64,000 nt of DNA, taken from NCBI GenBank assembly GCA_023511535.1, contig JAIMBK010000006.1, positions 1 to 64,000 of the forward strand, written 5' to 3'. The position numbers and the translations under genes were made by a program. Under the pieces are notes generated by a model that was not told where the DNA came from, did not search any database, and was given only the letters and a program-made list of their open reading frames with translations. Positions 7,026-35,970 of this stretch are shown piece by piece. The first letter of the stretch is position 1; the number at the start of each line of letters is the position of its first letter. This DNA is from Armatimonadota bacterium (GTDB lineage Bacteria; Bacillota; Desulfotomaculia; Desulfotomaculales; Nap2-2B).

Positions 7026-7604
7026 TTAGTTTTTCAAAGTGAGAATCACCTGCCGGGCCACCCTGGCCAGGGGAAGGCAGCGGTCCATGCTGATTTTTTG
7101 CAGGTATTTGTAAGCTTCCTGTTCGCTGAAGCCCTTTTTCTCCATGAGCAAACCCTTGGCCTGCTCGACCAGCTTGCGCGTTTCCAGTTGCTTGCGCAGG
7201 TCCTGCACTTCTTTTTGCAACCTGGCGACCCGTTCAAAGTTGGCCAGGGCTGCTTCCAGGACAGGGAGGATGTTTGTTTCCTGAAGCGGTTTGGTCAGGA
7301 GGCCGTAGACGCCGGTTTTCCTGACCAGCTCCTCCAGATTCTGCTGGTGGTTTAATTCTACGGCCAGCACCACCGGGGCCACCCGGTGCTCCCCGATAAT
7401 TTCCGCGAGATCGATCCCTTCGCTGCCGGGAATCCTGTCCTCCAGGATGACGAGGTCCGGTTCGGTTTGAAAGACGATTTGCAGGGCGCTTTTCCCCTCG
7501 CCGGCTTCCCTGATCAGTGTGCAGCCCGCGTGGCGTAAAATATCTTTCAATTGCCGCCGGAAGTTTAAATCGCTGTCGGCAATTACCACGCGGCTCACCG
7601 GCAC
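7026..7604 (-). CDS. ANTAR-domain response-regulator-like antiterminator (ANTAR1)
   Basis: Receiver-like N-terminus plus ANTAR helix region LVEQAKGLLMEKKGFSEQEAYKYLQKISMDR. Confidence 0.9.
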   Translation of the reverse strand: MPVSRVVIADSDLNFRRQLKDILRHAGCTLIREAGEGKSALQIVFQTEPDLVILEDRIPGSEGIDLAEIIGEHRVAPVVLAVELNHQQNLEELVRKTGVYGLLTKPLQETNILPVLEAALANFERVARLQKEVQDLRKQLETRKLVEQAKGLLMEKKGFSEQEAYKYLQKISMDRCLPLARVARQVILTLKN

Positions 7605-7795: not shown

Positions 7796-7823
7796 TTGAA
7801 TTTTTTAATCGAACTGATATAAT
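7796..7823 (+). promoter_or_regulatory. Sigma-A-type promoter for degenerate GS leader
   Basis: TTGAAT-N16-TATAAT. Confidence 0.65.
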
Positions 7824-7845: not shown

Positions 7846-7906
7846 GAGGGCAATGGCGTCCTCTGACAGGTTTTTTTTCAGGGCCTGTTTGAGGGCGTTT
7901 TCTTTT
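7846..7906 (+). promoter_or_regulatory. ANTAR-type hexaloop hairpin overlapping a terminator
   Basis: GAGGGC[AATGGC]GTCCTC (7846-7863); GCGTCCTC (7856-7863) can pair with GAGGGCGT (7891-7898) followed by TTTTCTTTTT; no clear first hairpin. Confidence 0.7.
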
Positions 7907-7995
7907 TAGCCGGAATATTAGCGGTCTGCCTGCGAAGAGCTGCGGCTTAAGCGGGCCGGCACCTTAAAACAGCCCGGCGGCGAAGGTTTGGGGAG

Positions 7996-9300
7996 GTGGA
8001 GAAGATGCGGTCCGCTTACACCAGGGAAGACGTCCTGGAGAAAGCCCGGGAGTACAACGTTCAGTTTATCCGGCTGCAGTTCACCGATATTTTCGGGGTT
8101 TTTAAAAATATTGCCGTCACCATTGACGAATTACCCAGGGCTCTCGAAGGAAAGGTATCCTTCGACAGCTCCGTCCTCGAGGGGCTGGTGGGCAACCGGA
8201 CCAGGGATATTTGCCTTTTGCCCGATCCCGCCACTTTTGTAGTTTTTCCCTGGCGTCCGCGGGAAGGAGCGGTGGCCAGGTTGATTTGCGACGCGGTTAC
8301 CCCCCAGGGAGAACCCTTTGGCGCCTGTTCCCGCCACGTGCTCAAAAAAGTGCTGAAAGCGGCCCGGGAAGCCGGTTATGGCCTGCAGGCAGGCGCCGAG
8401 ATGGATTTTTTCCTTTTTCACCTGGACCAGCAGGGCAAACCGACGGTGGTTACCCACGACCAGGCCGGGTATTGCGATTTGACGCCCGTGGATTTGGGTG
8501 AAAACGCCCGGCGCGACATGGTTTTAACCTTAAAGGAAATGGGTTTTGACGTTTCCTCTTCCCACCACGAAATCGCCCCCGGTCAGCACCAGATTTTTCT
8601 CAAAGAGGACAACGCCCTGACGATGGCCGACCAGATCGTCACGTTCCGGTTTGTGGTGCGGACCATTGCCCAGCGCCACGGCCTGCACGCCTCCTTTATG
8701 CCCAAACCCTTTGCCCGTCTGAACGGCTCGGGGATGCATCTGCATTTGTCCTTGCGCCCGGGGGAAGAAAACGCTTCCCGGCAATTGGCCGGCCGGTTTA
8801 TCGCCGGCCTGCTTGAACATGCCGCCGCCTTCACGGCCATTGCCAACCCGCTGGTGAACAGCTACAAGCGCCTGGCGTTCAGTGAGCTGGCCCCGGCCAT
8901 CGTAGGCTGGTCGAACAGCAGCCGGAATACCATGATCCGGGTCCCGAACCAGCGAGAAGCGCTGTCGCCCATTATCCTGCGCAGCCCCGACGCCGCGGCC
9001 AATCCCTATCTGGTGATTGCCGTCGCCCTGGCGTCCGGCCTGGACGGAATCGCCCGCCGGCTGGAGCTTCCGCCTGCGCTTGATGATTTTCCCGCGCGCG
9101 AAAAGAAGAGCGAAAAGGAACGGCGGCTTCCCCGCAATTTGGGCGACGCCCTTTGCGCCCTGAGCCGGGATGAACTGGTCTGCGGGGTGTTGGGCGAACA
9201 GATGACCGGGCTTTTCCGGAAGGTAAAGGAAGCCGAATGGGAGCGCTACGAAACCCAGGTGCACCAGTGGGAACTGGACGAATACCTGGCTAATTATTAA
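7996..9300 (+). CDS. Glutamine synthetase-like protein with degenerate active site
   Basis: Collinear with GS-I paralogues in this window but lacks several catalytic/metal residues (GQHQI, ELAPA, SPIILRSPD). Confidence 0.9.
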   Translation: MEKMRSAYTREDVLEKAREYNVQFIRLQFTDIFGVFKNIAVTIDELPRALEGKVSFDSSVLEGLVGNRTRDICLLPDPATFVVFPWRPREGAVARLICDAVTPQGEPFGACSRHVLKKVLKAAREAGYGLQAGAEMDFFLFHLDQQGKPTVVTHDQAGYCDLTPVDLGENARRDMVLTLKEMGFDVSSSHHEIAPGQHQIFLKEDNALTMADQIVTFRFVVRTIAQRHGLHASFMPKPFARLNGSGMHLHLSLRPGEENASRQLAGRFIAGLLEHAAAFTAIANPLVNSYKRLAFSELAPAIVGWSNSSRNTMIRVPNQREALSPIILRSPDAAANPYLVIAVALASGLDGIARRLELPPALDDFPAREKKSEKERRLPRNLGDALCALSRDELVCGVLGEQMTGLFRKVKEAEWERYETQVHQWELDEYLANY

Positions 9301-9513: not shown

Positions 9514-11097
9514 ATGGGATACAGTAAAGGTATTAACGCCAGCGCGGCCACGCTCACCAGGTCGCGCACGGGCGACGATCAGTGCCCTTTTAGCGGAATG
9601 TGCGTAACCTGCCTGGACGGCTGTCCGGGCCTCTGCGAGGTCGGGAAGTCCGCCGTCCGGGGAAAGGAAGTCCTTTATCCCCAGCCGTTTGGAAAAACTA
9701 CTTCCGCATCGCAGAAAGATTACCCGGTGGATTATTCGCATTTTAACATCATGGGAACGGCGGTAGGCGCCTTCGGGATCGATCCCGATCCCGACAAAGC
9801 AATTTTCCCGGCGGTCAACCTGGAAACCGCCGTGGGCGCGAACGGCGATCTCAAGCTGGCTCTGCCGATCGTGATCGCCGCCATGGGCTCGACCAACGTG
9901 GCCGCCAATAACTGGGACCACCTGGCGGCCGGGGCGGCCATCTCGGGCGTAGGAATCGTCATTGGGGAAAACGTTTGCGCCATGGACCCGGAAGTAGAAA
10001 TTAAAAACGGCCGGGTTGTTCATTCCCCGGCTCTTTCCCGGCGGGTCAAGGACTTCCAGATGTGGTCCGGAGATAAAGGTTTTCTTGCCGTCCAGGCCAA
10101 CGTGGAGGACACCCGGTTAGGCGTTCAGGAGTACGCGATCGAAAAATTAAATGTCGAGGCCGTCGAGCTCAAATGGGGCCAGGGCGCGAAAGACATCGGC
10201 GGGGAGGTCAAGCTGAACACGCTGGAGCGTGCCCTGCAGTTGAAGAGCCGCGGTTACATCGTTTTGCCCGACCCGGAAAACCCGCAGGTCCAGGCTGCTT
10301 TTAAAGCAGGTGCGTTTAGCGAGTTTGAGCGTCATTCCCGCATTGGGATGGTGGAGTATGAATCTTTCCTGGCCCGCGTCGAAGAACTGCGGAAAGCAGG
10401 CGCCAGATACGTTTTCTTGAAAACGGGCGCTTATCGTCCCGCCGATCTGGCCCGGGCGGTGAAGTTCGCTTCCGATGCCCGCCTCGACCTGTTGACGGTG
10501 GACGGAGCCGGCGGCGGCACAGGCATGAGCCCCTGGCGGATGATGAACGAATGGGGCGTGCCAACCGTTTATCTTCAGGCGCTGCTGGTAAAATACCTGG
10601 ATAAGCTGGCCGCCGGGGGCGCCTACGTCCCGCCCGTGGCTATTGCCGGCGGTTTTGCCCTGGAGGATTTGATCTTTAAAGGGCTGGCCATCGGGGCTCC
10701 CTACACGAAGGCGGTCGGAATCGCCCGTTCTCCCCTGGCGGCGGCAATGGTCGGCAAAACGGTGGGCGAGGCCGTTAAATCCGGCAAGGTTCCCAACGAA
10801 TACAAGAAGTACGGGGATACCCTGGAGCAGGTCTTTATCGCCGCTGCCGAGCTGAAGGAAAAACTGGGCGGCGAAGCCTTCGCCCGGCTGCCCGTAGGCG
10901 CCATCGGGGTTTACACCTACTTTGAACGCCTGGCCCAGGGGTTGCGGCAGTTCATGTGCGGCGCCCGCAAGTTTGCCCTGGCTTATCTAACCCGCGACGA
11001 TGTGGCCGCCCTCACCAGGGAAGCGGCGGAAATTACGGGCATCCGTTACATTATGGATGTGGATGCGGAAGAGGTCGAAGAAATTTTCGCCGGTTGA
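9514..11097 (+). CDS. FMN-binding glutamate synthase family protein (orphan GltB2-like)
   Basis: LTVDGAGGGTGMSPWRMMNEWGVPT; Cys-rich N-terminus CPFSGMCVTCLDGCPGLCEVGK. Confidence 0.85.
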   Translation: MGYSKGINASAATLTRSRTGDDQCPFSGMCVTCLDGCPGLCEVGKSAVRGKEVLYPQPFGKTTSASQKDYPVDYSHFNIMGTAVGAFGIDPDPDKAIFPAVNLETAVGANGDLKLALPIVIAAMGSTNVAANNWDHLAAGAAISGVGIVIGENVCAMDPEVEIKNGRVVHSPALSRRVKDFQMWSGDKGFLAVQANVEDTRLGVQEYAIEKLNVEAVELKWGQGAKDIGGEVKLNTLERALQLKSRGYIVLPDPENPQVQAAFKAGAFSEFERHSRIGMVEYESFLARVEELRKAGARYVFLKTGAYRPADLARAVKFASDARLDLLTVDGAGGGTGMSPWRMMNEWGVPTVYLQALLVKYLDKLAAGGAYVPPVAIAGGFALEDLIFKGLAIGAPYTKAVGIARSPLAAAMVGKTVGEAVKSGKVPNEYKKYGDTLEQVFIAAAELKEKLGGEAFARLPVGAIGVYTYFERLAQGLRQFMCGARKFALAYLTRDDVAALTREAAEITGIRYIMDVDAEEVEEIFAG

Positions 11098-11158: not shown

Positions 11159-11241
11159 TTAGATACAATGGTGTATCTAAGGAAGGCAAGGGTGCCCTCG
11201 GCAGGTTTTCGCTAAACCTGGCAAAGAGGGCATTTTTCTTC
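11159..11241 (+). promoter_or_regulatory. ANTAR dual-hexaloop leader with terminator
   Basis: P1 TTAGATAC[AATGGT]GTATCTAA (11159-11180); P2 GAAGGC[AAGGGT]GCCCTC (11182-11199); terminator TGCCCTC (11193-11199)/GAGGGCA (11226-11232)+T tract, so P2 and terminator are mutually exclusive. Confidence 0.85.
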
Positions 11242-11343: not shown

Positions 11344-11925
11344 ATGGCGGAAAATCGTATAGTTGTGATAGATAACGACGCTGCCTGGCGAAAAAACATC
11401 AAGGCGATCTTAACCCGGTCGGGCTACTGGGTGATCGGCGAGGCGGGCGATGGCTTAAGCGCCTTGAAACTGATCAGGAGCCGGCAGCCGGACCTGTTGA
11501 TTATCGCCGCCGAATTACCGGGTATGGACGGCCTGGAAGTGGCCAGGATTGTTCACGAAGATAAATTGGCCCCGGTGATTGTGCTGGCCGCGGCCCAGAC
11601 TCCGGGGCTGCTGGAAAAAGCCAAGGACGCCCGGGTGGCCGCCCTGTTGATCAAACCCGTTGAGGAGGCAAGCCTTTTGCCGGCGATCGAAATCTCCCTG
11701 GCCAATTATCAGGAGATTATCAAGCTGGAAAAACAGATCAAGGAACTGCAGGAGGCTCTGGAAACCCGCAAACTGGTGGAGCGCGCCAAGGGCATTTTGA
11801 TGGAAACCCTGGGCCTTTCCGAGGCGGAAGCCTTCCGGCGCATCCAGAAGCAAAGCATGAACAAACGCCTTTCGATGCGCCAGGTGGCCGAAGCAATTAT
11901 CCTGGCCCAAAGCCTGAAAACGTGA
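11344..11925 (+). CDS. ANTAR-domain response-regulator-like antiterminator (ANTAR2)
   Basis: LVERAKGILMETLGLSEAEAFRRIQKQSMNKRLSMRQVAEAII. Confidence 0.92.
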   Translation: MAENRIVVIDNDAAWRKNIKAILTRSGYWVIGEAGDGLSALKLIRSRQPDLLIIAAELPGMDGLEVARIVHEDKLAPVIVLAAAQTPGLLEKAKDARVAALLIKPVEEASLLPAIEISLANYQEIIKLEKQIKELQEALETRKLVERAKGILMETLGLSEAEAFRRIQKQSMNKRLSMRQVAEAIILAQSLKT

Positions 11926-12055: not shown

Positions 12056-12150
12056 CGGGACAAAGGAGTACCGGCAGTTAAAAAACAAGGCAACGGCGCC
12101 TTTGGGGAAAGGATCCTCTTTCCTTGATCGAAAGGCGCCTTTACGTTTTT
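12056..12150 (+). promoter_or_regulatory. ANTAR dual-hexaloop leader with terminator upstream of GS2
   Basis: P1 CGGGAC[AAAGGA]GTACCG (12056-12073, one internal mismatch); P2 AAGGC[AACGGC]GCCTT (12087-12102); terminator GGCGCCTTT (12095-12103)/AAAGGCGCC (12131-12139)+TTTACGTTTTT. Confidence 0.82.
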
Positions 12151-12177
12151 CAGCCAAAAATTGAAGAGGTGGTTAAC

Positions 12178-13506
12178 ATGTCCGTGGACAAAAACGAGAT
12201 CCTGGCGAAAGCCAGGGAGATGGGGGTTAAATTCATCCGCCTGCAGTTCACCGACATCACGGGTGTCTTGAAAAATGTGGCCATCACCGTGGAGCAACTG
12301 GAAAAGGCGCTGGACGGGGAGCTGATGTTTGACGGTTCTTCCATTCACGGTTTTGTGCGGATTGAGGAATCGGATATGTACCTGCGCCCCGATCCCGATA
12401 CTTTTACCGTTTTTCCCTGGCGGCCCCGGGACGGGGCGGTGGCCAGGCTGATCTGCGATATCTATAACCCGGACGGGACTCCTTTTGCCGGCTGCCCGCG
12501 CAACGCTTTAAAAAGGGTCCTGGCCCGGGCGGCCAGGATGGGCTTTACCATGAATGTGGGGCCGGAATGTGAATTTTTCCTGTTTTATACCGATGGCGAG
12601 GGCAGGCCGACTTTGCGCACGCACGATCAGGCCGGGTATTTTGATTTAAGCCCGGTGGACCTGGGCGAAAACGCCCGGCGCTCCATGGTCCTCACTTTAG
12701 AGGAAATGGGTTTTGAAATTGAGGCTTCGCACCACGAGGTGGCGCCCGGCCAGCACGAGATCGATTTTAAGTATGCGGACGCCCTGGACGTGGCCGATAA
12801 AATCATCACCTTTAAATTTGTGGTGCGCACCATTGCCCAGCGCCACGGCCTGCACGCCACCTTCATGCCCAAGCCGGTTTTCGGGATTAACGGCAGCGGG
12901 ATGCACATGCACCAGTCGCTTTTCCGGGACGGGCAAAACGCCTTTTACGATCCCCACGACCCGCAGGGCTTGAGCAAGACGGCGCGCTACTACATCGGCG
13001 GGCTGCTGAAGCACGCCCGGGCCCTGGCGGCGGTAACCAGCCCGACGGTAAATTCCTACAAGCGGCTGGTTCCCGGCTACGAGGCACCGGTTTACATTTC
13101 CTGGGCCGAACGCAACCGGAGCCCGCTGATCCGGGTGCCGGCCAAGCGCGGCGCTTCCACCCGGATCGAGTTAAGGTGCCCGGATCCTTCCTGCAACCCT
13201 TACCTGGCCGTCGCCGCCTGCCTGGCGGCCGGCCTGGACGGCATCGAAAAGAAAATTGAGCCTCCGCCGCCGTGCAATTTGAACATTTACGAGTTGACTC
13301 CCGCCCAGCGGCAAAAGCTGGGGATCGGCAGCCTGCCGGCCAGCCTGGAAGAAGCTCTGGCGGAGTTGGCCGCCGACGACGTGATCAAGGGCGCCCTGGG
13401 CGAGCACATTTACGAGCGCTTCCGGGAAGCCAAGCAAAAGGAATGGGAGGAGTACCGCACGCGGGTCCACTCGTGGGAGATCGAGCAATACCTGACCAGG
13501 TTTTAG
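12178..13506 (+). CDS. glnA: Glutamine synthetase type I (GS2)
   Basis: Intact motifs [69 protein letters not shown] at 12178 preferred over the TTG start in the track. Confidence 0.93.
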
Positions 13507-13667: not shown

Positions 13668-13749
13668 GGTACAACGACGTACCGTTTGGGGCGAAGGGGC
13701 CTGAACCGGCGGGTAAAGGGCGAATTATCCGGCGTAAAGGCCTTTTTTT
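13668..13749 (+). promoter_or_regulatory. ANTAR-type dual-hairpin leader with terminator upstream of GS3
   Basis: P1 GGTAC[AACGAC]GTACC (13668-13683); P2 GGGC[GAAGGG]GCCT (13689-13702; first loop base G, not A); GGCCT (13698-13702)/AGGCC (13738-13742)+T7; TATAAT at 13633-13638. Confidence 0.75.
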
Positions 13750-13785: not shown

Positions 13786-15117
13786 GTGGTTCAGTTGACC
13801 GCCGACGACGTGCGAAAAATGGCCAAGGAGTTAGGGGTAAAGTTTATCCGCCTGCAGTTTACCGACATTTTCGGGGTGCTCAAAAATGTTTCCATTACCG
13901 TTGAGCAGCTGGAAAAGGCCCTGGCCGGGGAATTAATGTTTGACGGTTCGTCCATTGAAGGTTTCGTCCGGATTGAGGAATCGGATATGTATCTGCGGCC
14001 GGACCCTTCCACGTTTGTTGTTTTCCCCTGGCGCCCCCGGGACGGCGCGGTGGCCCGGTTGATCTGCGATATTTACACCGCGGCCGGCGAGCCCTTTATC
14101 GGCGACCCCCGCTACGTGCTGAAAAGGGCGATTAACGAAGCAAAAGAAATGGGCTTCACCATGAACGTAGGCCCGGAAGCAGAGTTTTTCCTCTTCCATA
14201 TCGACAGCGAAGGGCGCCCCACCACTGTTACGCACGACCGGGCCGGCTATTTCGACCTTACGCCGGTGGACCTGGGCGAGGACGCCCGGCGGGATATGGT
14301 TTTAACCCTCGACGAACTGGGCTTTGAGGTGGAGGCTTCCCATCACGAAGTGGCGCCCGGCCAGCACGAGATTGACTTTAAATACGCCGACGCGCTGGAA
14401 ACGGCCGACCGCATCGTCACCTTCCGGTTTGTGGTGCGCACCATCGCCCAGCGCCACGGCCTGCACGCCACCTTCATGCCCAAACCGATCATGGGCATCC
14501 CGGGTTCCGGCATGCATTTAAACCAGTCGCTGATGAAAAACGGCCAAAACGCCTTTTATGATCCAAATGCCCCTTTGCAGTTAAGTGACACGTGCCTTTA
14601 CTATATCGGCGGTCTCATACGGCACGCCCGGGCGATTACCGCCGTCACCAACCCCACGGTGAACTCTTACAAACGGCTGGTGTCCGGCTACGAGGCGCCG
14701 GTTTATATTGCCTGGTCCTTCCAGAACCGCAGCCCGCTCATCCGCGTACCCGCAAAGAAGGGCCAGTCCACGCGGATTGAATTAAGGAGTCCGGATCCTT
14801 CCTGCAATCCTTACCTGGCTCTGGCTGTTTGTTTAAAGGCCGGCCTGGAGGGGATCAAGAAACAAATCCAGCCCCCCCGGCCTTGCGACCGGAATATTTA
14901 CGAGATGACCCCGGCGGAACGGGAACAGCTGGGCATCGGAAGCCTGCCGGAAAGCCTGGCGGAAGCGCTGCAGGAACTGGAGAAAGACCCGTTGATCCAG
15001 GACGCCCTGGGACCGCACGTGCTGCAGCGCTTTATGGAGGCCAAGCGCATCGAGTGGGAGCGCTACCGGGTCCAGGTGCATCCCTGGGAGCTGGACGAAT
15101 ACCTGACGAAGTATTAA
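13786..15117 (+). CDS. glnA: Glutamine synthetase type I (GS3)
   Basis: Full-length GS-I, very similar to GS2; [13 protein letters not shown] differs from GS2. Confidence 0.92.
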
Positions 15118-15160: not shown

Positions 15161-15330
15161 CTGGTCCAACGAAGGGCCAGCGCAGGGCAACGGCGCCCAC
15201 GGGCAGGAACAAATCAGGATACTGTCGTTATTCTTCGCAATAATTTATCGTCAGATCAGGATTTATTCGTTTTTTTGGCGAGCATTTTTAGACAGTGTCT
15301 CACGGTTAACCTGCCGTGGGCTATTTTTTT
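15161..15330 (+). promoter_or_regulatory. ANTAR dual-hexaloop leader with long terminator region upstream of the GOGAT operon
   Basis: P1 CTGGTCC[AACGAA]GGGCCAG (15161-15180); P2 GGGC[AACGGC]GCCC (15185-15198); GCCCACGGGCAGG (15195-15207) can pair with CCTGCCGTGGGC (15310-15321)+TATTTTTTT. Confidence 0.78.
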
Positions 15331-15368: not shown

Positions 15369-15869
15369 ATGGGAAAGAACGCTGCCATGGTTTTGGGAAG
15401 GGTGATTTTGATGGGAAGGGTTTTGGTTAAGCCGGAGGTTTGCATCGGGTGTCATTTGTGCGAGATCTGGTGCGCCGTAGCCCACTCGCGTTCCAAAAAC
15501 ATCATCAAGGCGTTTACCAGCGAGCAGCCAAAGCCGCTGCCCAGGGTTATTGTGGAGGAAAGGCTGCCTTTAACTTTTGCCCTTTCGTGCCGGCACTGCG
15601 CCGAGCCGGACTGCGTCTTTGCCTGCATCAGCGGCGCCCTGTACAAAGACCGGGAGACGGGGCGGGTCGTGCACGACCGCGCGCGGTGCGTCGGCTGCTA
15701 CAGCTGCGTGATGGCCTGCCCGTACGGCTGCGTACTGATCAACGAAAGAGAGCGCCAGGTTTTGAAGTGCGACCTCTGCACCGGGCTGGATTTTCCATAT
15801 TGCGTCAGCCACTGCCCGAACGGGGCGCTTGTTTATGAGGAAGCGGCAGACAAGCACGGGGGGTTTTAA
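15369..15869 (+). CDS. 4Fe-4S ferredoxin-type iron-sulfur protein of glutamate synthase module
   Basis: CIGCHLCEIWC, CRHCAEPDCVFAC, CVGCYSCVMACPYGC; alternative ATG at 15411. Confidence 0.85.
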   Translation: MGKNAAMVLGRVILMGRVLVKPEVCIGCHLCEIWCAVAHSRSKNIIKAFTSEQPKPLPRVIVEERLPLTFALSCRHCAEPDCVFACISGALYKDRETGRVVHDRARCVGCYSCVMACPYGCVLINERERQVLKCDLCTGLDFPYCVSHCPNGALVYEEAADKHGGF

Positions 15870-15872
15870 GGG

Positions 15873-17162
15873 ATGAGCAGGTTTACCTACCTGATTATTG
15901 GCAATTCGGCGGGTGCCGTGGGATGCATCGAGGCTCTGCGGGAAGTGGACGGAACAGGGACCATCGCCCTGATTTCGGACGAAACCCGCCACGTATACTC
16001 CCGGGCCCTGATTCCGTATTACCTGGAGGGGAAAATCGAACGCGCCGGGATGGATTACCGTCCGCCCGATTTCTACACAAGGCACGGCGTAACCCCTTTT
16101 TTAGGAAAAGAGGCGGTGGGGGTCGATTTTGACCGAAAAGAAGTCGAACTGGCCGGCGGCGAACGGATCGGCTACGGAAAGCTTCTTCTGGCCACCGGCG
16201 GAAGGCCCTTTCTGCCGCCGCTGCCCGGCCTGGATAGGCAAAACGTTTTTACCTTTCTAAGCCTCGACGACGTGCTGGCCATCGAAAAGGCCCTGCCCGG
16301 AGTGAAAAACGCGGTCGTCCTCGGCGGTGGGGTAATCGGCCTGATGGCCGCCGAGGTATTGAGCAAAAAGGGTCTCGACGTTTGCGTCCTGGAACTGGCC
16401 GGCAGAGTGCTGGCCCCGGTGGTCGACGAGACGGCTTCCGCGCTGGTCGAAGACCTGTTTCGGAAAAACGGAGTCAAAATCTACACAGAAACTACAATTA
16501 AAGAGATCCGCGGGGCGGAAAGCGTGGAGGAAGTCAGGCTGACCGACGGCCGGACGATCCCCGCCGGCCTCCTGATTATTGCCGTTGGGGTCGTTCCCCG
16601 GGTGGAGCTGGTGAAAGGCACCGGGATCAGGGTTAACCGGGGGATTGTGGTGGACCAAAGGATGCAGACTTCCGTCCCGGACGTTTACGCCTGCGGCGAC
16701 TGTGCCGAGGTCTACGACTTCGCGGCCGGCCATCATAAGCTGCTGCCCCTGTGGCCGAACGCCTACGCCGGGGGAAGGATCGCCGGTTTCAACATGGCCG
16801 GGCGCCCCCGGAAATACGAGTGGGGAACCGGGATGAACGCCACGCACTTTTTCGATTTTTACATCATCAATGCCGGGGTGAATGTAACCGGGGATAATGC
16901 CGATGGGTACGAGATAGTCAGCAAGTTGGCGGAAGACCGGCGGAGCTACCGCAAATTTGCCCTCAAAGCCGGCCGGATCCAGGGCTTTGTCCTGGCGGGG
17001 GAAGTCGCCCGGGCGGGAATTTTCCTGCACCTGATGCGGAAAGCGGTTGACGTGCGGGCTTTTCAGCAGGAGCTCACGAAGAGCAACTTCGGCTTCAGCG
17101 ACCTGCCGGATCAGTTGCGGTGGGCGCTGTTAAAAGACGACGTGGTTTTGGGAGTGGTGTAA
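15873..17162 (+). CDS. FAD-dependent NAD(P)H oxidoreductase (pyridine nucleotide-disulfide family)
   Basis: VVLGGGVIGLMAAE, TSVPDVYACGDCAEV. Confidence 0.88.
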   Translation: MSRFTYLIIGNSAGAVGCIEALREVDGTGTIALISDETRHVYSRALIPYYLEGKIERAGMDYRPPDFYTRHGVTPFLGKEAVGVDFDRKEVELAGGERIGYGKLLLATGGRPFLPPLPGLDRQNVFTFLSLDDVLAIEKALPGVKNAVVLGGGVIGLMAAEVLSKKGLDVCVLELAGRVLAPVVDETASALVEDLFRKNGVKIYTETTIKEIRGAESVEEVRLTDGRTIPAGLLIIAVGVVPRVELVKGTGIRVNRGIVVDQRMQTSVPDVYACGDCAEVYDFAAGHHKLLPLWPNAYAGGRIAGFNMAGRPRKYEWGTGMNATHFFDFYIINAGVNVTGDNADGYEIVSKLAEDRRSYRKFALKAGRIQGFVLAGEVARAGIFLHLMRKAVDVRAFQQELTKSNFGFSDLPDQLRWALLKDDVVLGVV

Positions 17163-18302
17163 ATGCTCGTCAAAAGGTGTTTTGCCAGCGAACGGCGGCT
17201 GCCGGCCAAAGAAAGCGAAGCCTGCGGGCTTTTCGGGGTAATGGACATCACCGGAAAAAGGTTTGGCGGGGAAATGGCAATCAGCGCCATGAAGAACATC
17301 AAAGTACGCGGAAACGGCCTGGGGGGCGGTTTTGCGGTTTACGGCCTTTATCCCGAATACAGGGATTATTACGCCCTGCACATCATGTTTCAAAATAAAA
17401 TGGCCAAAGAACAGGTGGAAAGTTATTTAGTTGAGAACTTTAACATCGTTTATGACGAGGAAATCCCCACCAACCCGGACGTCAATTTATTTTGCCCGCC
17501 CCTGGTCTGGAGGTACTTTGTCGCCCCGAAAAAAAAGGGGGAGGAGCAGGCGCTGTCCGACGACGATTTCGTCGTTTCCCGGGTAATGTACATCAACACC
17601 AGCATTGAGGACGCCTGCGTGTTTTCTTCCGGGAAAGACATGGGCGTTTTTAAGGGGGTCGGTTTTCCGGAAGAAATCGCCGCCTACTTCCGGCTGGCTG
17701 AACTGTACGCGGGATATCTCTGGACGGCGCACAGCCGGTTTCCCACCAATACCCCGGGCTGGTGGGGCGGTGCGCACCCTTTCAGCATCCTCGACTGGAC
17801 CGTGGTGCACAACGGGGAAATTTCTTCCTACGGAACAAACCGGCGGTTTTTAGAGATGCACAATTACTACTGCACGCTCTTTACCGATACGGAAGTAATG
17901 GCCTATGCGGTGGACCTGCTGATGCGCCGGCAGGGGCTGCCCATTGAGGTGGTTTCCCGGATCTTTGCGCCGCCCCTGTGGGATTTGATCGAGCATATGG
18001 AAGAAAGAGAAAAAAAGCTTTATTCGACCCTGCGGATGGTTTACGCCCCCCTTTTAATCAACGGCCCGTTTACGGTCATTGTGGCCCACCAAAATGAAAT
18101 GTTCGGCCTGACGGACCGGATCCGGCTCCGTCCGATCACCGCCGGCGCCAAAGGGGACCTGGTTTTCCTGTCTTCCGAAGAGGCGGCCATCCGGTGCGTC
18201 TGCCCGGACCTCGACCTTGCCTGGACGCCCCGGGGGGGCGAGCCGGTGGTGGTGCGGCAGGGCTCCCGGGACCACCTGTTGAGCCTGCCGGAATCGGTTT
18301 AG
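17163..18302 (+). CDS. Class II glutamine amidotransferase domain of glutamate synthase
   Basis: CGLFGVMDITGKRFGG; TAHSRFPTNTPGWWGGAHPF; VHNGEISSYGTNRR. Confidence 0.88.
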   Translation: MLVKRCFASERRLPAKESEACGLFGVMDITGKRFGGEMAISAMKNIKVRGNGLGGGFAVYGLYPEYRDYYALHIMFQNKMAKEQVESYLVENFNIVYDEEIPTNPDVNLFCPPLVWRYFVAPKKKGEEQALSDDDFVVSRVMYINTSIEDACVFSSGKDMGVFKGVGFPEEIAAYFRLAELYAGYLWTAHSRFPTNTPGWWGGAHPFSILDWTVVHNGEISSYGTNRRFLEMHNYYCTLFTDTEVMAYAVDLLMRRQGLPIEVVSRIFAPPLWDLIEHMEEREKKLYSTLRMVYAPLLINGPFTVIVAHQNEMFGLTDRIRLRPITAGAKGDLVFLSSEEAAIRCVCPDLDLAWTPRGGEPVVVRQGSRDHLLSLPESV

Positions 18303-18371
18303 TAACTGAGGCGGGGCATTTCAAGGACAAGCCATGCCCTCTGCCCAAAATTTAGCTTCGAGGGTGAGACC

Positions 18372-19886
18372 ATGTACTCTTATCTCCTGCCTGAATTTAT
18401 CGTGGAAAGAAGAGAAGACAGGTGCATCGCCTGCCGGGTTTGCGAAAGGCAGTGCGCGAATGACGTCCATGCCTACGATCCGGAGCTGGAGCGGATGGTT
18501 TCCCGCGCGGAGGCCTGCGTGGGCTGCCAGCGGTGCGCCGTTTTGTGCCCGACCGGGGCGCTTCTTATCCGCCCCCACCCGGCGGAGTACCGGCCGAACA
18601 GCAGCTGGACGCGGGAAAAGCTCCAGGACTTGAAAAAGCAGGCCGAAACCGGCGGGGTAATCCTGACCGGAAGCGGCAACGACAAGCCGTACCGGATTTA
18701 CTGGGACCACCTGGTTTTAAACGCGTCCCAGGTGACCAATCCCTCCATTGACCCGCTGCGGGAGCCGATGGAACTGAAAACCTTTTTGGGCCGGAAACCC
18801 GATACTTTGGAAATTGATCTCGATAATGGCGGGGTAAAAATAGAATCCGCCCTCCACCCGAATGTGCCCGTGGCCACCCCCATCGTTTTTTCCGCCATGT
18901 CCTACGGGGCGATCAGCTACCAGGCTTTTCAGTCGCTGGCCAGGGCGGCCAAAGAAGCCGGCACCCTCTTTAATACCGGGGAGGGCGGCCTGCCCAAAGA
19001 AATGCGCGCCGCCTACGGCGGCAACGCCATCGTCCAGTGCGCCAGCGGGCGTTTCGGCGTCGACCCGGAATATTTGAACTGCGCGGCGGTCATCGAAATA
19101 AAAATCGGTCAGGGGGCCAAACCGGGCATCGGGGGTCACCTGCCGGGGGAAAAGGTTTCCGAGAATATCTCCGTCACCAGAATGATTCCCCGGGGAACGG
19201 ATGCGCTGTCGCCGGCGCCCCAGCACGACATTTACTCCATTGAAGACCTGTCCATGCTGATTTACGCCTTAAAGGAAGCGACCAACTACGAAAAGCCGGT
19301 TTCCGTGAAAATTGCCGCCGTGCATAACGTGGCGGCCATCGCCTCGGGAATGGTGCGGGCCGGGGCGGACATCATCGCCATTGACGGGCTGCGGGGAGGA
19401 ACCGGCGCGGCGCCGAAAATTATCCGGGACAACGTGGGTATCCCCATTGAACTGGCGCTGGCCGCCGTGGACAAAAGGCTGCGGGAGGAAGGGATCCGCA
19501 ACAAGTGTTCCATCCTGGCCGCCGGCGGAATCCGCTGTTCGGCCGACGTGGTGAAGGCGATTGCCCTGGGGGCCGACGCGGTGTACATCGGGACGGCGGC
19601 CTTAGTCGCGATGGGGTGTACCCTTTGTCAGAAATGCTATACCGGGAAGTGTAACTGGGGGATCTGCACCCAGGACCCCTACCTGGCCAAACGTTTAAAC
19701 CCGGAGATTGCCGGCCGGCGGCTCGTCAACCTGCTCCACGGCTGGAGCCACGAAATCAAAGAAATGCTGGGCGGAATGGGTATCAACGCCATCGAAAGCC
19801 TCCGGGGCAACCGGGAGCACCTGCGTGGCGTAGGGCTGGCGGAGTGGGAACTGGACGTCCTGGGCGTGAAGGGAGCGGGGGAGTAG
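18372..19886 (+). CDS. Archaeal-type glutamate synthase, N-terminal ferredoxin plus FMN domain
   Basis: CIACRVCERQC/CVGCQRCAVLCP; GLRGGTGAAPKIIRDNVGIP; CTLCQKCYTGKCNWGICTQDP. Confidence 0.9.
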   Translation: MYSYLLPEFIVERREDRCIACRVCERQCANDVHAYDPELERMVSRAEACVGCQRCAVLCPTGALLIRPHPAEYRPNSSWTREKLQDLKKQAETGGVILTGSGNDKPYRIYWDHLVLNASQVTNPSIDPLREPMELKTFLGRKPDTLEIDLDNGGVKIESALHPNVPVATPIVFSAMSYGAISYQAFQSLARAAKEAGTLFNTGEGGLPKEMRAAYGGNAIVQCASGRFGVDPEYLNCAAVIEIKIGQGAKPGIGGHLPGEKVSENISVTRMIPRGTDALSPAPQHDIYSIEDLSMLIYALKEATNYEKPVSVKIAAVHNVAAIASGMVRAGADIIAIDGLRGGTGAAPKIIRDNVGIPIELALAAVDKRLREEGIRNKCSILAAGGIRCSADVVKAIALGADAVYIGTAALVAMGCTLCQKCYTGKCNWGICTQDPYLAKRLNPEIAGRRLVNLLHGWSHEIKEMLGGMGINAIESLRGNREHLRGVGLAEWELDVLGVKGAGE

Positions 19887-19889
19887 AAA

Positions 19890-20741
19890 ATGAACAACTT
19901 AAACGTCAGGTTCGGCCTGCGCGACATGTTTTTGGACGGGGTGAGGCCGGCGGCGGCCCTGATCAAATACGTAAACATAAACGGGCAGAGCGCCGAAATC
20001 GATGCGCTGGATTTAAAGCACAAAGAACTGAACGATTTATTGCGAGCAGTGGCCCTGCAGGGGATCAGCAAAGTAACCGTCAAAAACGTCTTCGGGCAGC
20101 GGTACATCGGGACGCGGCTCTATCTTCCGGACCCGGAGAAAAGACTGGAGATAAGGATCTCCGGGAACCCCGGCAACGACCTGGGTGCTTTCCTGAACGG
20201 ACACCGGATCATCGTTTTCGGCAACGCCCAGGACGGCGTGGGAAACACCATGGACGACGGGGAAATTATCGTTCACGGCCGGGCCGGGGACATTGCGGCC
20301 ATGTCCATGCGCGGCGGCAAAATCTTTATCCGGGATAACGTGGGTTACCGCGCCGCCATCCACATGAAGGAATACCCCGGCAAAGTGCCGGTGCTGGTGA
20401 TCGGCGGCACGGCCCAGGATTTCTTCGGCGAATACATGGCCGGGGGCATCGTCATTCTGCTGGGGTTAACCCTCAAGGAAAACGAGCCCCACAAGGCCCA
20501 CTACATCGGGACGGGCATGCACGGCGGAGTAATCTACCTGCGCGGCCGGGTGGAGGAGTACCAGTTAGGCAAAGAGGTGGGAGTGCGCCCCCTGGACGAC
20601 CGGGACCGGGCGGTCGTGGAGCGGTACGTCGGCGAATTTTGTGCGCACTTCGGCCTTTCCGCCGGGAAAATCCTCCAGGGAGAGTTCCGGAAGCTCCTGC
20701 CCGTTTCCAAAAGGCCCTATGGAAAGATTTACGCCTATTAA
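19890..20741 (+). CDS. Glutamate synthase GXGXG (GltB3) domain protein
   Basis: GNAQDGVGNTMDDGEIIVHGRAGDIAAMSMRGGKIFIRDNVGYRAAIHMKEY. Confidence 0.88.
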   Translation: MNNLNVRFGLRDMFLDGVRPAAALIKYVNINGQSAEIDALDLKHKELNDLLRAVALQGISKVTVKNVFGQRYIGTRLYLPDPEKRLEIRISGNPGNDLGAFLNGHRIIVFGNAQDGVGNTMDDGEIIVHGRAGDIAAMSMRGGKIFIRDNVGYRAAIHMKEYPGKVPVLVIGGTAQDFFGEYMAGGIVILLGLTLKENEPHKAHYIGTGMHGGVIYLRGRVEEYQLGKEVGVRPLDDRDRAVVERYVGEFCAHFGLSAGKILQGEFRKLLPVSKRPYGKIYAY

Positions 20742-31601: not shown

Positions 31602-31661
31602 CAAAAATTAAAAGGCGCTCTTTAAGGAGGAGCAACTCTGCTCCTTTTGAGCGCCTTTGCT
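31602..31661 (-). promoter_or_regulatory. Putative ANTAR-type hexaloop and terminator upstream of nifH
   Basis: Minus strand: AGC[AAAGGC]GCT (31650-31661) overlaps terminator arm AAAGGCGCTC (31649-31658)/GAGCGCCTTT (31611-31620)+TTAATTTTT; nested hairpin AGGAGC[AGAGTT]GCTCCT (31628-31645). Confidence 0.6.
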
Positions 31662-31788
31662 TTTTTAAGGTAAAAGCCCTTGACCATTTTTTTCCTTTTG
31701 TCAAGAGGTTTTCAAAAATAATTGGGCCGCTCCAGGCATTCATCCTTGCTGTTTGAAGAGAAATCGACGTGGCGATTTCTCCGCCTGA

Positions 31789-32165: not shown

Positions 32166-33575
32166 TCAGGAAGAGCTTACCGAAGGCTCCTTAAGAGTGG
32201 CCGCAGTTGTTTCGCTATCCGCAATCCCCCGGCCTACCGGAGCACCGATCACCAGGTCCGCGTACCCGTCTTCGCCGTGCTGGGTCAGGTCTAAACCCTG
32301 CTCTTCTTCATCGGCGCTGGCGCGTAGTTTGGTGAAGAGCCCGACGACTTTTAAAATGACGAAGGTTAAAATTACAGCGAAAACCCAGGTGCTGGCTACA
32401 CCGATGAACTGAATCCAGAGCTGGCCGGGATTGCCGAAAAACAGCCCGTCGGCGCCGGCGGGGTTGACGGCGGTGGAGGCGAACAGACCGGTGGCCAGGG
32501 CGCCCCAGGTGCCGCCGATTCCGTGTACCCCGAAAACGTCCAGCGAATCATCGTAGCCCAGCCGGGCCTTGAGGATACTGACGGCAAGGTAGCAAACCAC
32601 CCCGGCGACCAGACCGATGAGCAGGGCCGCCAGCGGGCCCACAAAACCGGCAGCGGGAGTGATGGCCACCAGTCCAGCCACGCCGCCGCTGGCTGCGCCC
32701 AACATGGTGGGTTTGCCGTGGTGCGCCCATTCGGCAAAAACCCAGGAAAGGGCCGCCATGGCGGCAGCAGTGTTGGTCACCGTAAAGGCGCTGGCGGCCA
32801 GACCTCCGGCAGACAGGGCGCTGCCGGCGTTAAACCCGAACCAGCCGAACCAGAGCAGCGCCGCCCCCAGCACAGTCATGGGCAGGTGATGGGGGAGCAT
32901 GGGTTCGCTGCCGTATCCTTTCCGCCGGCCCAGCACTAAAGCAGCGATCAACCCGGAAACTCCGGAGCTGATGTGCACAACCGTCCCTCCGGCGAAATCC
33001 AGGGCGCCCAGTTCGCGTAGCCAGCCGCCCAGACCCCAGACCCAGTGGGCCAGCGGATCATAGACGAAAGTAGTCCAGAGCAGAATGAAGCCAAGAAAAG
33101 CCGGAAAACGCATTCTTTCGGCAATCGAACCGGTGATCAGGGCAGCCGTAATGATCGCAAACATGAGCTGAAAAACCATAAAGGTTTGGTGGGGGATGGT
33201 GGCCGCGTAATCGGGATTGGGCTCCTGGCCAACCCCTTTTAAGCCCAACCAGTCCAGTCCACCGATCAGGTGACTGTGGTCGGGGCCGAAAGCCAGGCTA
33301 TAACCAAACAGGACCCACTGCACGGAAACCAGGCAAATAATGATAAAGCACTGCATGAGTATGCTCAGGACGTTCTTCTTCCGTACCATTCCGCCGTAAA
33401 AGAGGGCGACTCCCGGCGTCATGATCATCACCAGCGCGGCGCTGATTAAGATAAAGGTGGTGTCGCCGGTGTCCGAAGCTGCCTCCCCGGCCAGGGCCAG
33501 ACCCGGGCAGGCGAGCAAAAAACAAAGGATGAGAAACAGGATGGAAAGTTTTGGCCTTTTCGACCGACTCCGCAT
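32166..33575 (-). CDS. amtB: Ammonium transporter
   Basis: TTFILISAALVMIMTPGVALFYGGMVRKKNVLSILMQ; VVHISSGVSGLIAAL; DVFGVHGIGGTWGALATG. Confidence 0.96.
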   Translation of the reverse strand: MRSRSKRPKLSILFLILCFLLACPGLALAGEAASDTGDTTFILISAALVMIMTPGVALFYGGMVRKKNVLSILMQCFIIICLVSVQWVLFGYSLAFGPDHSHLIGGLDWLGLKGVGQEPNPDYAATIPHQTFMVFQLMFAIITAALITGSIAERMRFPAFLGFILLWTTFVYDPLAHWVWGLGGWLRELGALDFAGGTVVHISSGVSGLIAALVLGRRKGYGSEPMLPHHLPMTVLGAALLWFGWFGFNAGSALSAGGLAASAFTVTNTAAAMAALSWVFAEWAHHGKPTMLGAASGGVAGLVAITPAAGFVGPLAALLIGLVAGVVCYLAVSILKARLGYDDSLDVFGVHGIGGTWGALATGLFASTAVNPAGADGLFFGNPGQLWIQFIGVASTWVFAVILTFVILKVVGLFTKLRASADEEEQGLDLTQHGEDGYADLVIGAPVGRGIADSETTAATLKEPSVSSS

Positions 33576-33730: not shown

Positions 33731-33799
33731 AGAAAAAGCCCCTAGTCAGAACCATCCCTGCCCAAGGGCTTCTTTGCCGTTAAATACTTCCTTGTATTT
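33731..33799 (-). promoter_or_regulatory. ANTAR dual-hexaloop leader with terminator upstream of amtB
   Basis: Minus strand P1 AAATAC[AAGGAA]GTATTT (33782-33799); P2 GGC[AAAGAA]GCC (33767-33778); terminator AAGCCCTT (33764-33771)/AGGGGCTT (33736-33743)+TTTTTC. Confidence 0.8.
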
Positions 33800-33936: not shown

Positions 33937-33975
33937 AGTTGCAAGGAGGTAACTCCGGTCCGGGCAATGGCGCCC
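33937..33975 (+). promoter_or_regulatory. ANTAR-type dual hexaloop leader upstream of asnB
   Basis: P1 AGTTGC[AAGGAG]GTAACT (33937-33954); P2 GGGC[AATGGC]GCCC (33962-33975); competing terminator less clear. Confidence 0.65.
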
Positions 33976-34122: not shown

Positions 34123-35970
34123 ATGTGTGGAATAACGGGCTGGATAGATTGGGAGGTAGACCTCACCAAAGCGCGCACCGTTCTGGAGGAAATGGCGCAA
34201 ACCCTGTCCTGCCGGGGGCCGGACGACAGCGGCTTTTGGCTTTCGCCGCGGGCGGCCCTGGCGCACCGCCGCCTGGTGGTCATCGATCCAAAGGGCGGGA
34301 GTCAACCGATGGTTCGCCGGCGAGGAGAAAGGGAATACGTAATTACCTACAACGGCGAACTTTATAATACTTCTGAGCTGCGGCGGGAGCTGGCGGCCAG
34401 GGGGCATAAATTTTTCGGTCATTCCGATACGGAAGTTTTGCTTAACGCTTATATCGAATGGGGGACGGATTGCGTCGAGCGCCTCAACGGCATTTTTGCC
34501 TTCGCCGTCTGGAGTGCAGGCGACCAGCGGCTTTTTTTAGCCCGCGACCGGTTGGGGGTCAAGCCCCTCTTTTATGCTCAACGGGGAAGCGCTTTTCTTT
34601 TCGGTTCCGAGCCGAAATCCCTGCTGGTCCACCCGGCCGTCCCGGCGGAGGTGGACGCCGTTGGCCTGGCCGAAATTTTTCTGATTGGCCCGGCCCGCAC
34701 GCCCGGTCAGGGAATTTTTCGCGGCCTGCAGGAACTTAAGCCGGGGCACTGGCTGGTTTACGACCGCCGGGGGGTGCAAATTTGCCAGTACTGGTCCCTG
34801 GAAAGCAAGCCACATTCAGACGACCTGCCGGCTACCGCCGGGAAGATTCGCCAGTTGCTGGAAGACGTCGTGAAAAGGCAACTGGTTTCCGACGTTCCCC
34901 TGTGCACTTTACTCTCCGGCGGCCTGGATTCCAGCGCCATCACCGCCTTTGCCGCCCGTGAGCTGGTGCGGGCTGGCGGCGGGCCGCTGGTCACTTACTC
35001 CGTGGACTACGTGGACAACAATCGCCATTTCCGGCCGAACTGCTTTCAACCCAGTGCCGATGCGCCGTGGGCACCGAAAATCGCTTCTTTCTTCGGGACC
35101 CGCCACCGCGCCGTTTTCCTCGACACGCCCGAACTGGTCGATGCGCTGCCGGTCGCCCTGCGGGCGCGCGATTTTCCGGGAATGGTTGATATCGACGCCT
35201 CCCTTTATCTCTTTTCCCGGGCGGTGAAAAGAGGGGCCACCGTGGCCCTGGCGGGGGAGTGCGCCGACGAAATATTCGGCGGCTATCCCTGGTGCCGGGA
35301 CTGGGAAGCCAGCCCAAACGGGACCTTTCCGTGGCTGCGGCTAATCCGCGAACGGACGCGTCTGCTCTCGCCGGAGCTTCTTTCGTACGTCCATCCGGAA
35401 GAATATCTTGCCGACCGTTACCGGGAAGCCCTGGCGGAAGTTCCCCTTCTTCCGGGTGAAAGCAAATTTGAAGCGCGCATGCGGCAGATTCTTTACCTGA
35501 ACATCACCCGCTGGATGCCCGTCCTGCTTGACCGGATGGACCGGATGAGCATGGCCGCGGGCCTGGAGGTGCGGGTGCCGTTTTGCGACCACCGGCTGGT
35601 CGAATACGCCTGGAATATTCCCTGGGCGATGAAAAATTGCGACGGCCGGGAAAAGGGAATTTTGCGCCGGGCGCTGGCCGGGGTGCTGCCGGCGGATTTA
35701 CTGGCGCGGCGCAAAAGCCCGTACCCGAAAACGCACAACCCCACCTACCGGGAAGCGGTGCGCACCTGGCTCCGGCGTATCCTGGCTGACCCTGCCGCCC
35801 CCTTGCGCCGGCTGGTCAATGCCGGTTTTGTGCACGAACTCCTCCAGAGCGACGCCATTGCCTTCGACCCGGCCTGGTTCGGGCAACTGATGGGGGGCGC
35901 CCAGCTTTTCGCCTATCTGGTCCAGATCGACCTCTGGCTGCGGGAATACCGGGTGCGGCTTCGGCTTTAG
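34123..35970 (+). CDS. asnB: Asparagine synthase (glutamine-hydrolysing)
   Basis: MCGITGW N-terminal nucleophile; LLSGGLDSSAITAFAA; GECADEIFGGYPWCRDWE. Confidence 0.94.
   Translation: MCGITGWIDWEVDLTKARTVLEEMAQTLSCRGPDDSGFWLSPRAALAHRRLVVIDPKGGSQPMVRRRGEREYVITYNGELYNTSELRRELAARGHKFFGHSDTEVLLNAYIEWGTDCVERLNGIFAFAVWSAGDQRLFLARDRLGVKPLFYAQRGSAFLFGSEPKSLLVHPAVPAEVDAVGLAEIFLIGPARTPGQGIFRGLQELKPGHWLVYDRRGVQICQYWSLESKPHSDDLPATAGKIRQLLEDVVKRQLVSDVPLCTLLSGGLDSSAITAFAARELVRAGGGPLVTYSVDYVDNNRHFRPNCFQPSADAPWAPKIASFFGTRHRAVFLDTPELVDALPVALRARDFPGMVDIDASLYLFSRAVKRGATVALAGECADEIFGGYPWCRDWEASPNGTFPWLRLIRERTRLLSPELLSYVHPEEYLADRYREALAEVPLLPGESKFEARMRQILYLNITRWMPVLLDRMDRMSMAAGLEVRVPFCDHRLVEYAWNIPWAMKNCDGREKGILRRALAGVLPADLLARRKSPYPKTHNPTYREAVRTWLRRILADPAAPLRRLVNAGFVHELLQSDAIAFDPAWFGQLMGGAQLFAYLVQIDLWLREYRVRLRL

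Follow-up and report, generated by a model that had tools for sequence, protein, structure and literature searches.

In the 64,000-nt stretch of DNA analysed here (the window), the gene for a degenerate type I glutamine synthetase (GS) paralogue, GS1, lies beside a gene for the ANTAR protein ANTAR1, and the pairing of a degenerate GS with an ANTAR gene recurs throughout the class. Given its lost catalytic residues, a dN/dS of 0.13 and a predicted fold that is still that of a GS, we read GS1 as a maintained pseudoenzyme, its loss of activity being predicted from its residues. A copy that is broken yet preserved beside an ANTAR gene class-wide is probably a nitrogen sensor and not an enzyme, and by analogy with AmiC-AmiR and NasS-NasT we lean towards GS1 serving as a cytoplasmic nitrogen-status sensor partner of ANTAR1.

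Results

Active site, ancestry and predicted fold of GS1

The 434-aa product of the GS1 open reading frame carries both GS domains (Pfam PF00120, 334 bits; PF03951, 76 bits), and the former score and the predicted fold (TM 0.90) agree in making it a homologue of type I GS. With a TIGR00653 score of 366 bits, it falls under the 429-bit NCBIfam GlnA equivalog cut-off (GS2 and GS3 score 607 and 597 bits), and it lacks the catalytic flap Glu, E327. The true start of the gene is probably ATG 8005 rather than GTG 7996, since a Shine-Dalgarno sequence (GGGGAGG, 7990-7996) abuts the GTG. Of the genome's five GS genes, four lie inside the window. A fifth GS-like gene (L005, contig C14) lacks E327 and S53, keeps all six metal ligands and probably encodes a different gamma-glutamyl ligase.

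Aligned to GS2 and GS3, GS1 shows every substitution named in the first-pass annotation (S53V, E131D, E220Q, E327L, R355P and E357I) and retains H269, R321, R339, R344 and R359 as stated there; the set of six metal ligands (E129, E131, E212, E220, H269, E357) is thus incomplete through E131D, E220Q and E357I. The E327L call is robust to alignment because the stretch from SYKR to the flap has no gap; the flap acid of GS1 lies one residue earlier than the E327 position. The claimed loss of key residues extends to the whole class for S53, E327 and the metal ligand E357 (replaced by V, I, L, A or T), which are gone from 41/41 class GS1 sequences, whereas E131D, E220Q and R355P occur in some lineages only: E129, E131, E220, H269 and R355 are variable, being lost in subsets of the 41. 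D50, E212, Q218, G265, R321 and R339 are kept in all 41. In GS2 and GS3 of the same genomes, the six metal ligands, S53, E327 and R355 are intact (losses in 0/62), and D50, E212, Q218, R321 and R339 are likewise kept in 62/62.

GS1 also has fixed changes specific to its clade, among them S58 for G and C160 for F. C160 (8473-8475), a Cys for Phe after the Tyr of the Y179 loop, is invariant clade-wide, basal members included, and a redox or ligand role for it is possible. Among the intact paralogues, position N264 is A or P and position H271 is N in the GS3 orthologues of nearly every genome, with all six metal ligands intact, and N271 is found in most GS2 as well; altered kinetics of GS3 from the N264 and H271 changes are possible.

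GS1 orthologues occur in most of 60 relatives, and the open reading frame is full-length across the whole class. In a tree built with active-site columns masked, the degenerate GS sequences form one clade (SH-aLRT 99), which gives the phylogeny that the first-pass annotation had proposed as a check; on this sequence evidence, GS1 descends once from an ANTAR-associated glutamine synthetase. Its dN/dS against a same-genus genome is 0.131, that of GS2 0.057. The AlphaFold2 model (pLDDT 81, pTM 0.88) finds GS structures as its best PDB matches (TM about 0.90), in keeping with the idea of a pseudoenzyme of intact fold, and since the first of these is the Paenibacillus polymyxa GS-glutamine-GlnR complex, a scaffold of this kind can dock a regulator. 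Shortened or broken GS1 copies were found at two loci (L121:1266-1523 and L131:2729-3744), each between an intact ANTAR1 and a GltS-like gene. Such copies and the decay of the active site are what a decaying relic would leave, but this explanation is barely credible given a dN/dS of 0.13 (on which we rejected it), class-wide full-length reading frames and invariant clade-specific residues such as C160.

Outside the class, in Thermincola-type relatives and several other families, S53 and E327 are gone but the six metal ligands are all still present; the sequences of this kind that were included in the tree form the earliest branches of the degenerate clade. The simplest reading of these sequences is that ammonium chemistry was lost first and the metal site later. 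The same basal relatives could suit an enzyme still working as a ligase or transferase, on a new substrate for which the ammonium-site residues would be dispensable, and the contig C14 protein suggests that the flap Glu may not be needed in other GS-fold ligases. However, no class sequence retains E357, the n2 metal ligand, H269, E129, E220 and R355 are often lost, and GS1 stays with ANTAR and glutamate synthase genes and no new pathway genes, so that we consider a new-substrate enzyme highly improbable.

Table 1. Features of the window discussed in the text, in order of position.
Feature	Position	Strand	Basis
ANTAR1: receiver-like domain and ANTAR RNA-binding domain; Glu at the phospho-Asp position	7026..7604	-	domain search, alignment
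Candidate sigma-70 promoter of GS1: TTGAAT, 16 nt, TATAAT	7796..7823	+	by eye
Single AnnGnn hexaloop hairpin in GS1 leader, GAGGGC(AATGGC)GTCCTC, with clade-conserved G.U pair	7846..7863	+	sequence, leader alignment
Terminator-like hairpin CCTCTGACAGG...CCTGTTTGAGG, then T-rich run; overlaps 3' arm of hexaloop hairpin	7860..7907	+	read from sequence
GS1: degenerate type I glutamine synthetase paralogue	7996..9300	+	Pfam, GlnA profile, alignments; predicted AF2 fold GS
GltA: glutamate-synthase FMN-domain-like protein	9514..11097	+	domain search, neighbourhoods
Dual-hexaloop ANTAR target upstream of ANTAR2	11162..11197	+	R1, 43.0 bits
ANTAR2: the genome's one ANTAR gene besides ANTAR1	11344..11925	+	domain search
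Dual-hexaloop ANTAR target upstream of GS2	12057..12101	+	R1, 26.7 bits
GS2: type I GS, catalytic residues intact	12169..13506	+	GlnA profile, alignment
Dual-hexaloop ANTAR target upstream of GS3	13668..13702	+	R1, 33.4 bits
GS3: type I GS, all six metal ligands	13786..15117	+	GlnA profile, alignment
Dual-hexaloop ANTAR target upstream of ferredoxin/oxidoreductase/GOGAT genes	15163..15198	+	R1, 38.3 bits
Ferredoxin, FAD oxidoreductase, split glutamate synthase (amidotransferase, FMN domain, GXGXG)	15369..20741	+	ORFs
Dual-hexaloop ANTAR target upstream of ammonium transporter gene amtB (32166..33575, -)	33766..33798	-	R1, 28.2 bits
Dual-hexaloop ANTAR target upstream of glutamine-hydrolysing asparagine synthetase gene asnB (34123..35970, +)	33938..33975	+	R1, 25.6 bits

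Linkage of GS1 to ANTAR genes

Loci were chosen by similarity to GS1 and not by the presence of ANTAR. Of the 41 class GS1s (40 genomes), 38 directly follow an ANTAR gene in the same orientation, two have one divergently beside them and one, an extra copy, has none; an ANTAR gene is also adjacent at 15/16 further class loci. The resulting 55/57 class loci, nearly always co-directional, and the 13/13 degenerate GS loci outside the class with an ANTAR gene directly beside them bear out the linkage that the first-pass annotation had said should be checked, although the genomes are related and the counts are not independent events. At three loci (a second copy in G034, L175 and L092), GS1 has no adjacent ANTAR1. 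In Thermincola-type relatives, the GS gene immediately follows the ANTAR gene, whose stop codon often overlaps the GS start codon, and four loci outside the class (L103, L197, L199 and L208) have a compact array of ANTAR, degenerate GS, ANTAR and intact GS genes, a minimal version of the system. The divergent ANTAR neighbour first described for GS1 is present here, but in our sample this layout is confined to the genus (this genome and its congener), with co-directional genes elsewhere, and we take it from this distribution to be derived. The GltA gene comes next after GS1 in nearly all relatives. No ANTAR gene is present in 14/113 class genomes, whose 13 GS loci are all intact, none degenerate.

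Such conserved adjacency of a candidate sensor gene to an ANTAR gene is also seen in the AmiC-AmiR and NasS-NasT pairs. Linkage alone is no proof of a special role for GS1, because intact GS2 is also commonly found behind ANTAR2; as judged from these neighbourhoods, these GS genes share ANTAR linkage as a family, and GS1 is not alone in having it. The strongest rival to a sensor is an inactive subunit: GS1 would enter mixed dodecamers with GS2 or GS3 and tune their activity, its tie to ANTAR being co-regulation only. GS1 shares about 52-54% identity with GS2 and GS3, whose genes lie a few kb away, and it keeps the predicted GS fold and, in every class sequence, D50, a residue that one GS subunit lends to the active site of its neighbour. 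However, the gene beside GS1 is ANTAR and not GS2 in almost all genomes, the ANTAR1-GS1 pair is kept in four genomes (G022, G027, G028 and G037) despite a rearranged or missing GS2/ANTAR2 part, and genomes without ANTAR are also without GS1, yet have intact GS. We therefore hold the mixed oligomer to be rather unlikely.

The genome has exactly two ANTAR genes, both within the window. The phospho-Asp of the ANTAR1 receiver is replaced in about half of the relatives and kept in the rest, and a second residue of the acidic pocket is lost almost everywhere among them. The Glu found here at the phospho-Asp position fits control by a partner protein without a phosphorelay in this genome; phosphorylation may operate in lineages that retain the Asp. 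In the ANTAR tree, the ANTAR2 proteins group together (SH-aLRT 96) along with some relatives from outside the class; the ANTAR1 proteins form a long-branched grade. A distance-correlation test for pairing specific to GS1 and ANTAR1 did not favour ANTAR1 over ANTAR2 (0.60 for GS1-ANTAR1, 0.75 for GS1-ANTAR2), with a GltA control that was noisy, some GltA copies being paralogues. Because GS1 distances correlate better with ANTAR2, that protein could be the functional partner, with the ANTAR1-GS1 adjacency marking the shared ancestry of ANTAR-GS pairs, and each ANTAR gene does pair with a GS gene (ANTAR1-GS1, ANTAR2-GS2). Against this, GS2 evolves more slowly than either ANTAR1 or GS1, and G022 has GS1 with ANTAR1 as its sole ANTAR gene. 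We judge a partnership with ANTAR2 to be improbable.

The GS1 leader and the predicted regulon

The ANTAR-type hairpin that the first-pass annotation had placed in the GS1 leader is there, as a single hexaloop (Table 1), and a hexaloop hairpin occurs in the GS1 leader of 33/40 relatives versus 6.6 expected from dinucleotide shuffles. Upstream of ANTAR1 there is no excess of such hairpins (5/38 versus 8.2 expected), so that operon-type relatives have the hairpin between the ANTAR1 and GS1 genes. Its consensus is RGGGC(AAYGRN)GTCCY, with the G.U pair fixed in 30/30 aligned leaders and compensatory change in the outer pairs; percent-paired values are biased upward, hairpins having been picked by pairing ability. 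A dual hairpin in the GS1 leader was considered and rejected, as only 4/40 passed, and in many relatives a TATAAT-like box is too close upstream for a first hairpin. The GS1 leader is thus without the usual first hairpin of a dual site, which counts against the ANTAR-sensor explanation, and we know of no single-hexaloop ANTAR target shown to attenuate transcription. An Rfam search of positions 1-30000 reported no ANTAR-type family. A target with one hexaloop is allowed for by the structure of EutV with RNA, from which the minimal ANTAR target was redefined in this way (PMC8934654).

Across the 3.2-Mb genome, the covariance model R1, trained on relatives and two window sites (those of ANTAR2 and GOGAT) with the other four outside training, gave six confident dual-hexaloop ANTAR sites, all in the window and all at nitrogen genes. 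The leaders of ANTAR2, GS2, GS3 and GOGAT have the canonical P1-P2 dual hexaloop, and in the candidate target leaders AnnGnn hexaloop hairpins overlap a terminator, as expected for an ANTAR pair. The genes at 15369..20741 are ones whose products we take, from knowledge of such sequences, to be ferredoxin, FAD oxidoreductase and split glutamate synthase. The amtB and asnB sites are divergent and lie between both genes, and the predicted regulon reaches beyond GS and GOGAT. In the leader of a nifH-like gene (31649-31685, minus strand), a weak dual-hexaloop-like site with a terminator-like hairpin was not significant (12.7 bits, E 0.27). The window start (6-76) matches a domain of group II introns (RF00029, 44 bits).

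Discussion

ANTAR control of Desulfotomaculum nitrogen genes and NitR control of GS and GOGAT genes are already known (PMC3369931, PMC6316151). In D. reducens and D. acetoxidans, Ramesh et al. (2012) described dual-hexaloop sites in front of nitrogen genes; in the main text of that paper, "glutamine synthetase" does not appear, and we found no sensor partner named for the Desulfotomaculum regulons (PMC3369931). Those regulons are dual-hexaloop, unlike the single hexaloop of the GS1 leader. NitR, an ANTAR protein of Clostridium saccharobutylicum, antiterminates GS and GOGAT genes (PMC6316151) and so resembles the present system in its targets; in Clostridium and Lachnospiraceae loci, however, an intact GS adjoins the ANTAR gene, with ANTAR downstream, which is unlike GS1. 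Our search of an open-access library turned up no report that links a GS pseudoenzyme, or this clade of them, to ANTAR.

The first-pass annotation had loosely likened GS1 to GS-GlnR/TnrA signalling, in which, as would be the case here, a GS-fold protein reports nitrogen status to a transcription regulator. The best fold match is such a GS-GlnR complex, but in detail the likeness is weakened. In Bacillus and Paenibacillus, a catalytically active GS works with a MerR-type DNA-binding regulator that has a GS-binding C-tail, whereas no such regulator is found at the GS1 locus, where the neighbour is a receiver plus ANTAR protein. Moreover, Glu304 and Arg62 of Bacillus GS fix the glutamine-bound state that GlnR binds (PMC9249791), and in class GS1s this lock is absent, the Glu (E327 in our numbering) being kept in 0/41 and R62 in 4/41, with loss in 37/41. 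Because both residues are gone, the literal GS-GlnR glutamine mechanism is unlikely in GS1.

AmiC-AmiR of the Pseudomonas amidase operon and NasS-NasT of nitrate assimilation, in which a ligand-binding protein gates an adjacent receiver-ANTAR protein (PMC3369936, PMC3795266), seem the better working analogues, closer than GS-GlnR/TnrA. They share with the GS1 locus a non-catalytic protein encoded beside a receiver or pseudo-receiver ANTAR protein that acts on nitrogen-gene leaders. They differ in that AmiC and NasS are not glutamine synthetases, and in that interaction and ligand have been shown for them and are putative for GS1.

Based on these comparisons we can sketch how GS1 might work. 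It would bind an amino-acid or nucleotide ligand through the retained R321, R339, R344 and R359. In nitrogen-replete cells, ligand-bound GS1 would hold ANTAR1 and the leaders would terminate; under nitrogen limitation, ANTAR1 would be released and would antiterminate the GS1 leader and, possibly with ANTAR2, the leaders of GS2, GS3, GOGAT, amtB and asnB. As GS1 is itself preceded by an ANTAR-type hairpin, GS1 and ANTAR1 would be linked in negative feedback acting through the GS1 leader. More tentatively, and with somewhat less confidence than we place in the partnership itself, we suggest that a sensor GS pseudoenzyme gates the ANTAR antiterminator class-wide and drives its own gene via a single-hexaloop attenuator.

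We know of no described mechanism of nitrogen sensing for the ANTAR proteins that govern GS, GOGAT and ammonium uptake in anaerobic Firmicutes, and a conserved GS pseudoenzyme beside an ANTAR gene provides a concrete, testable candidate for that sensor. The active GS paralogues in the same gene cluster offer built-in controls, and the clade appears to preserve graded stages in the passage from enzyme to regulator, with the flap and S53 going first and the metal site later.
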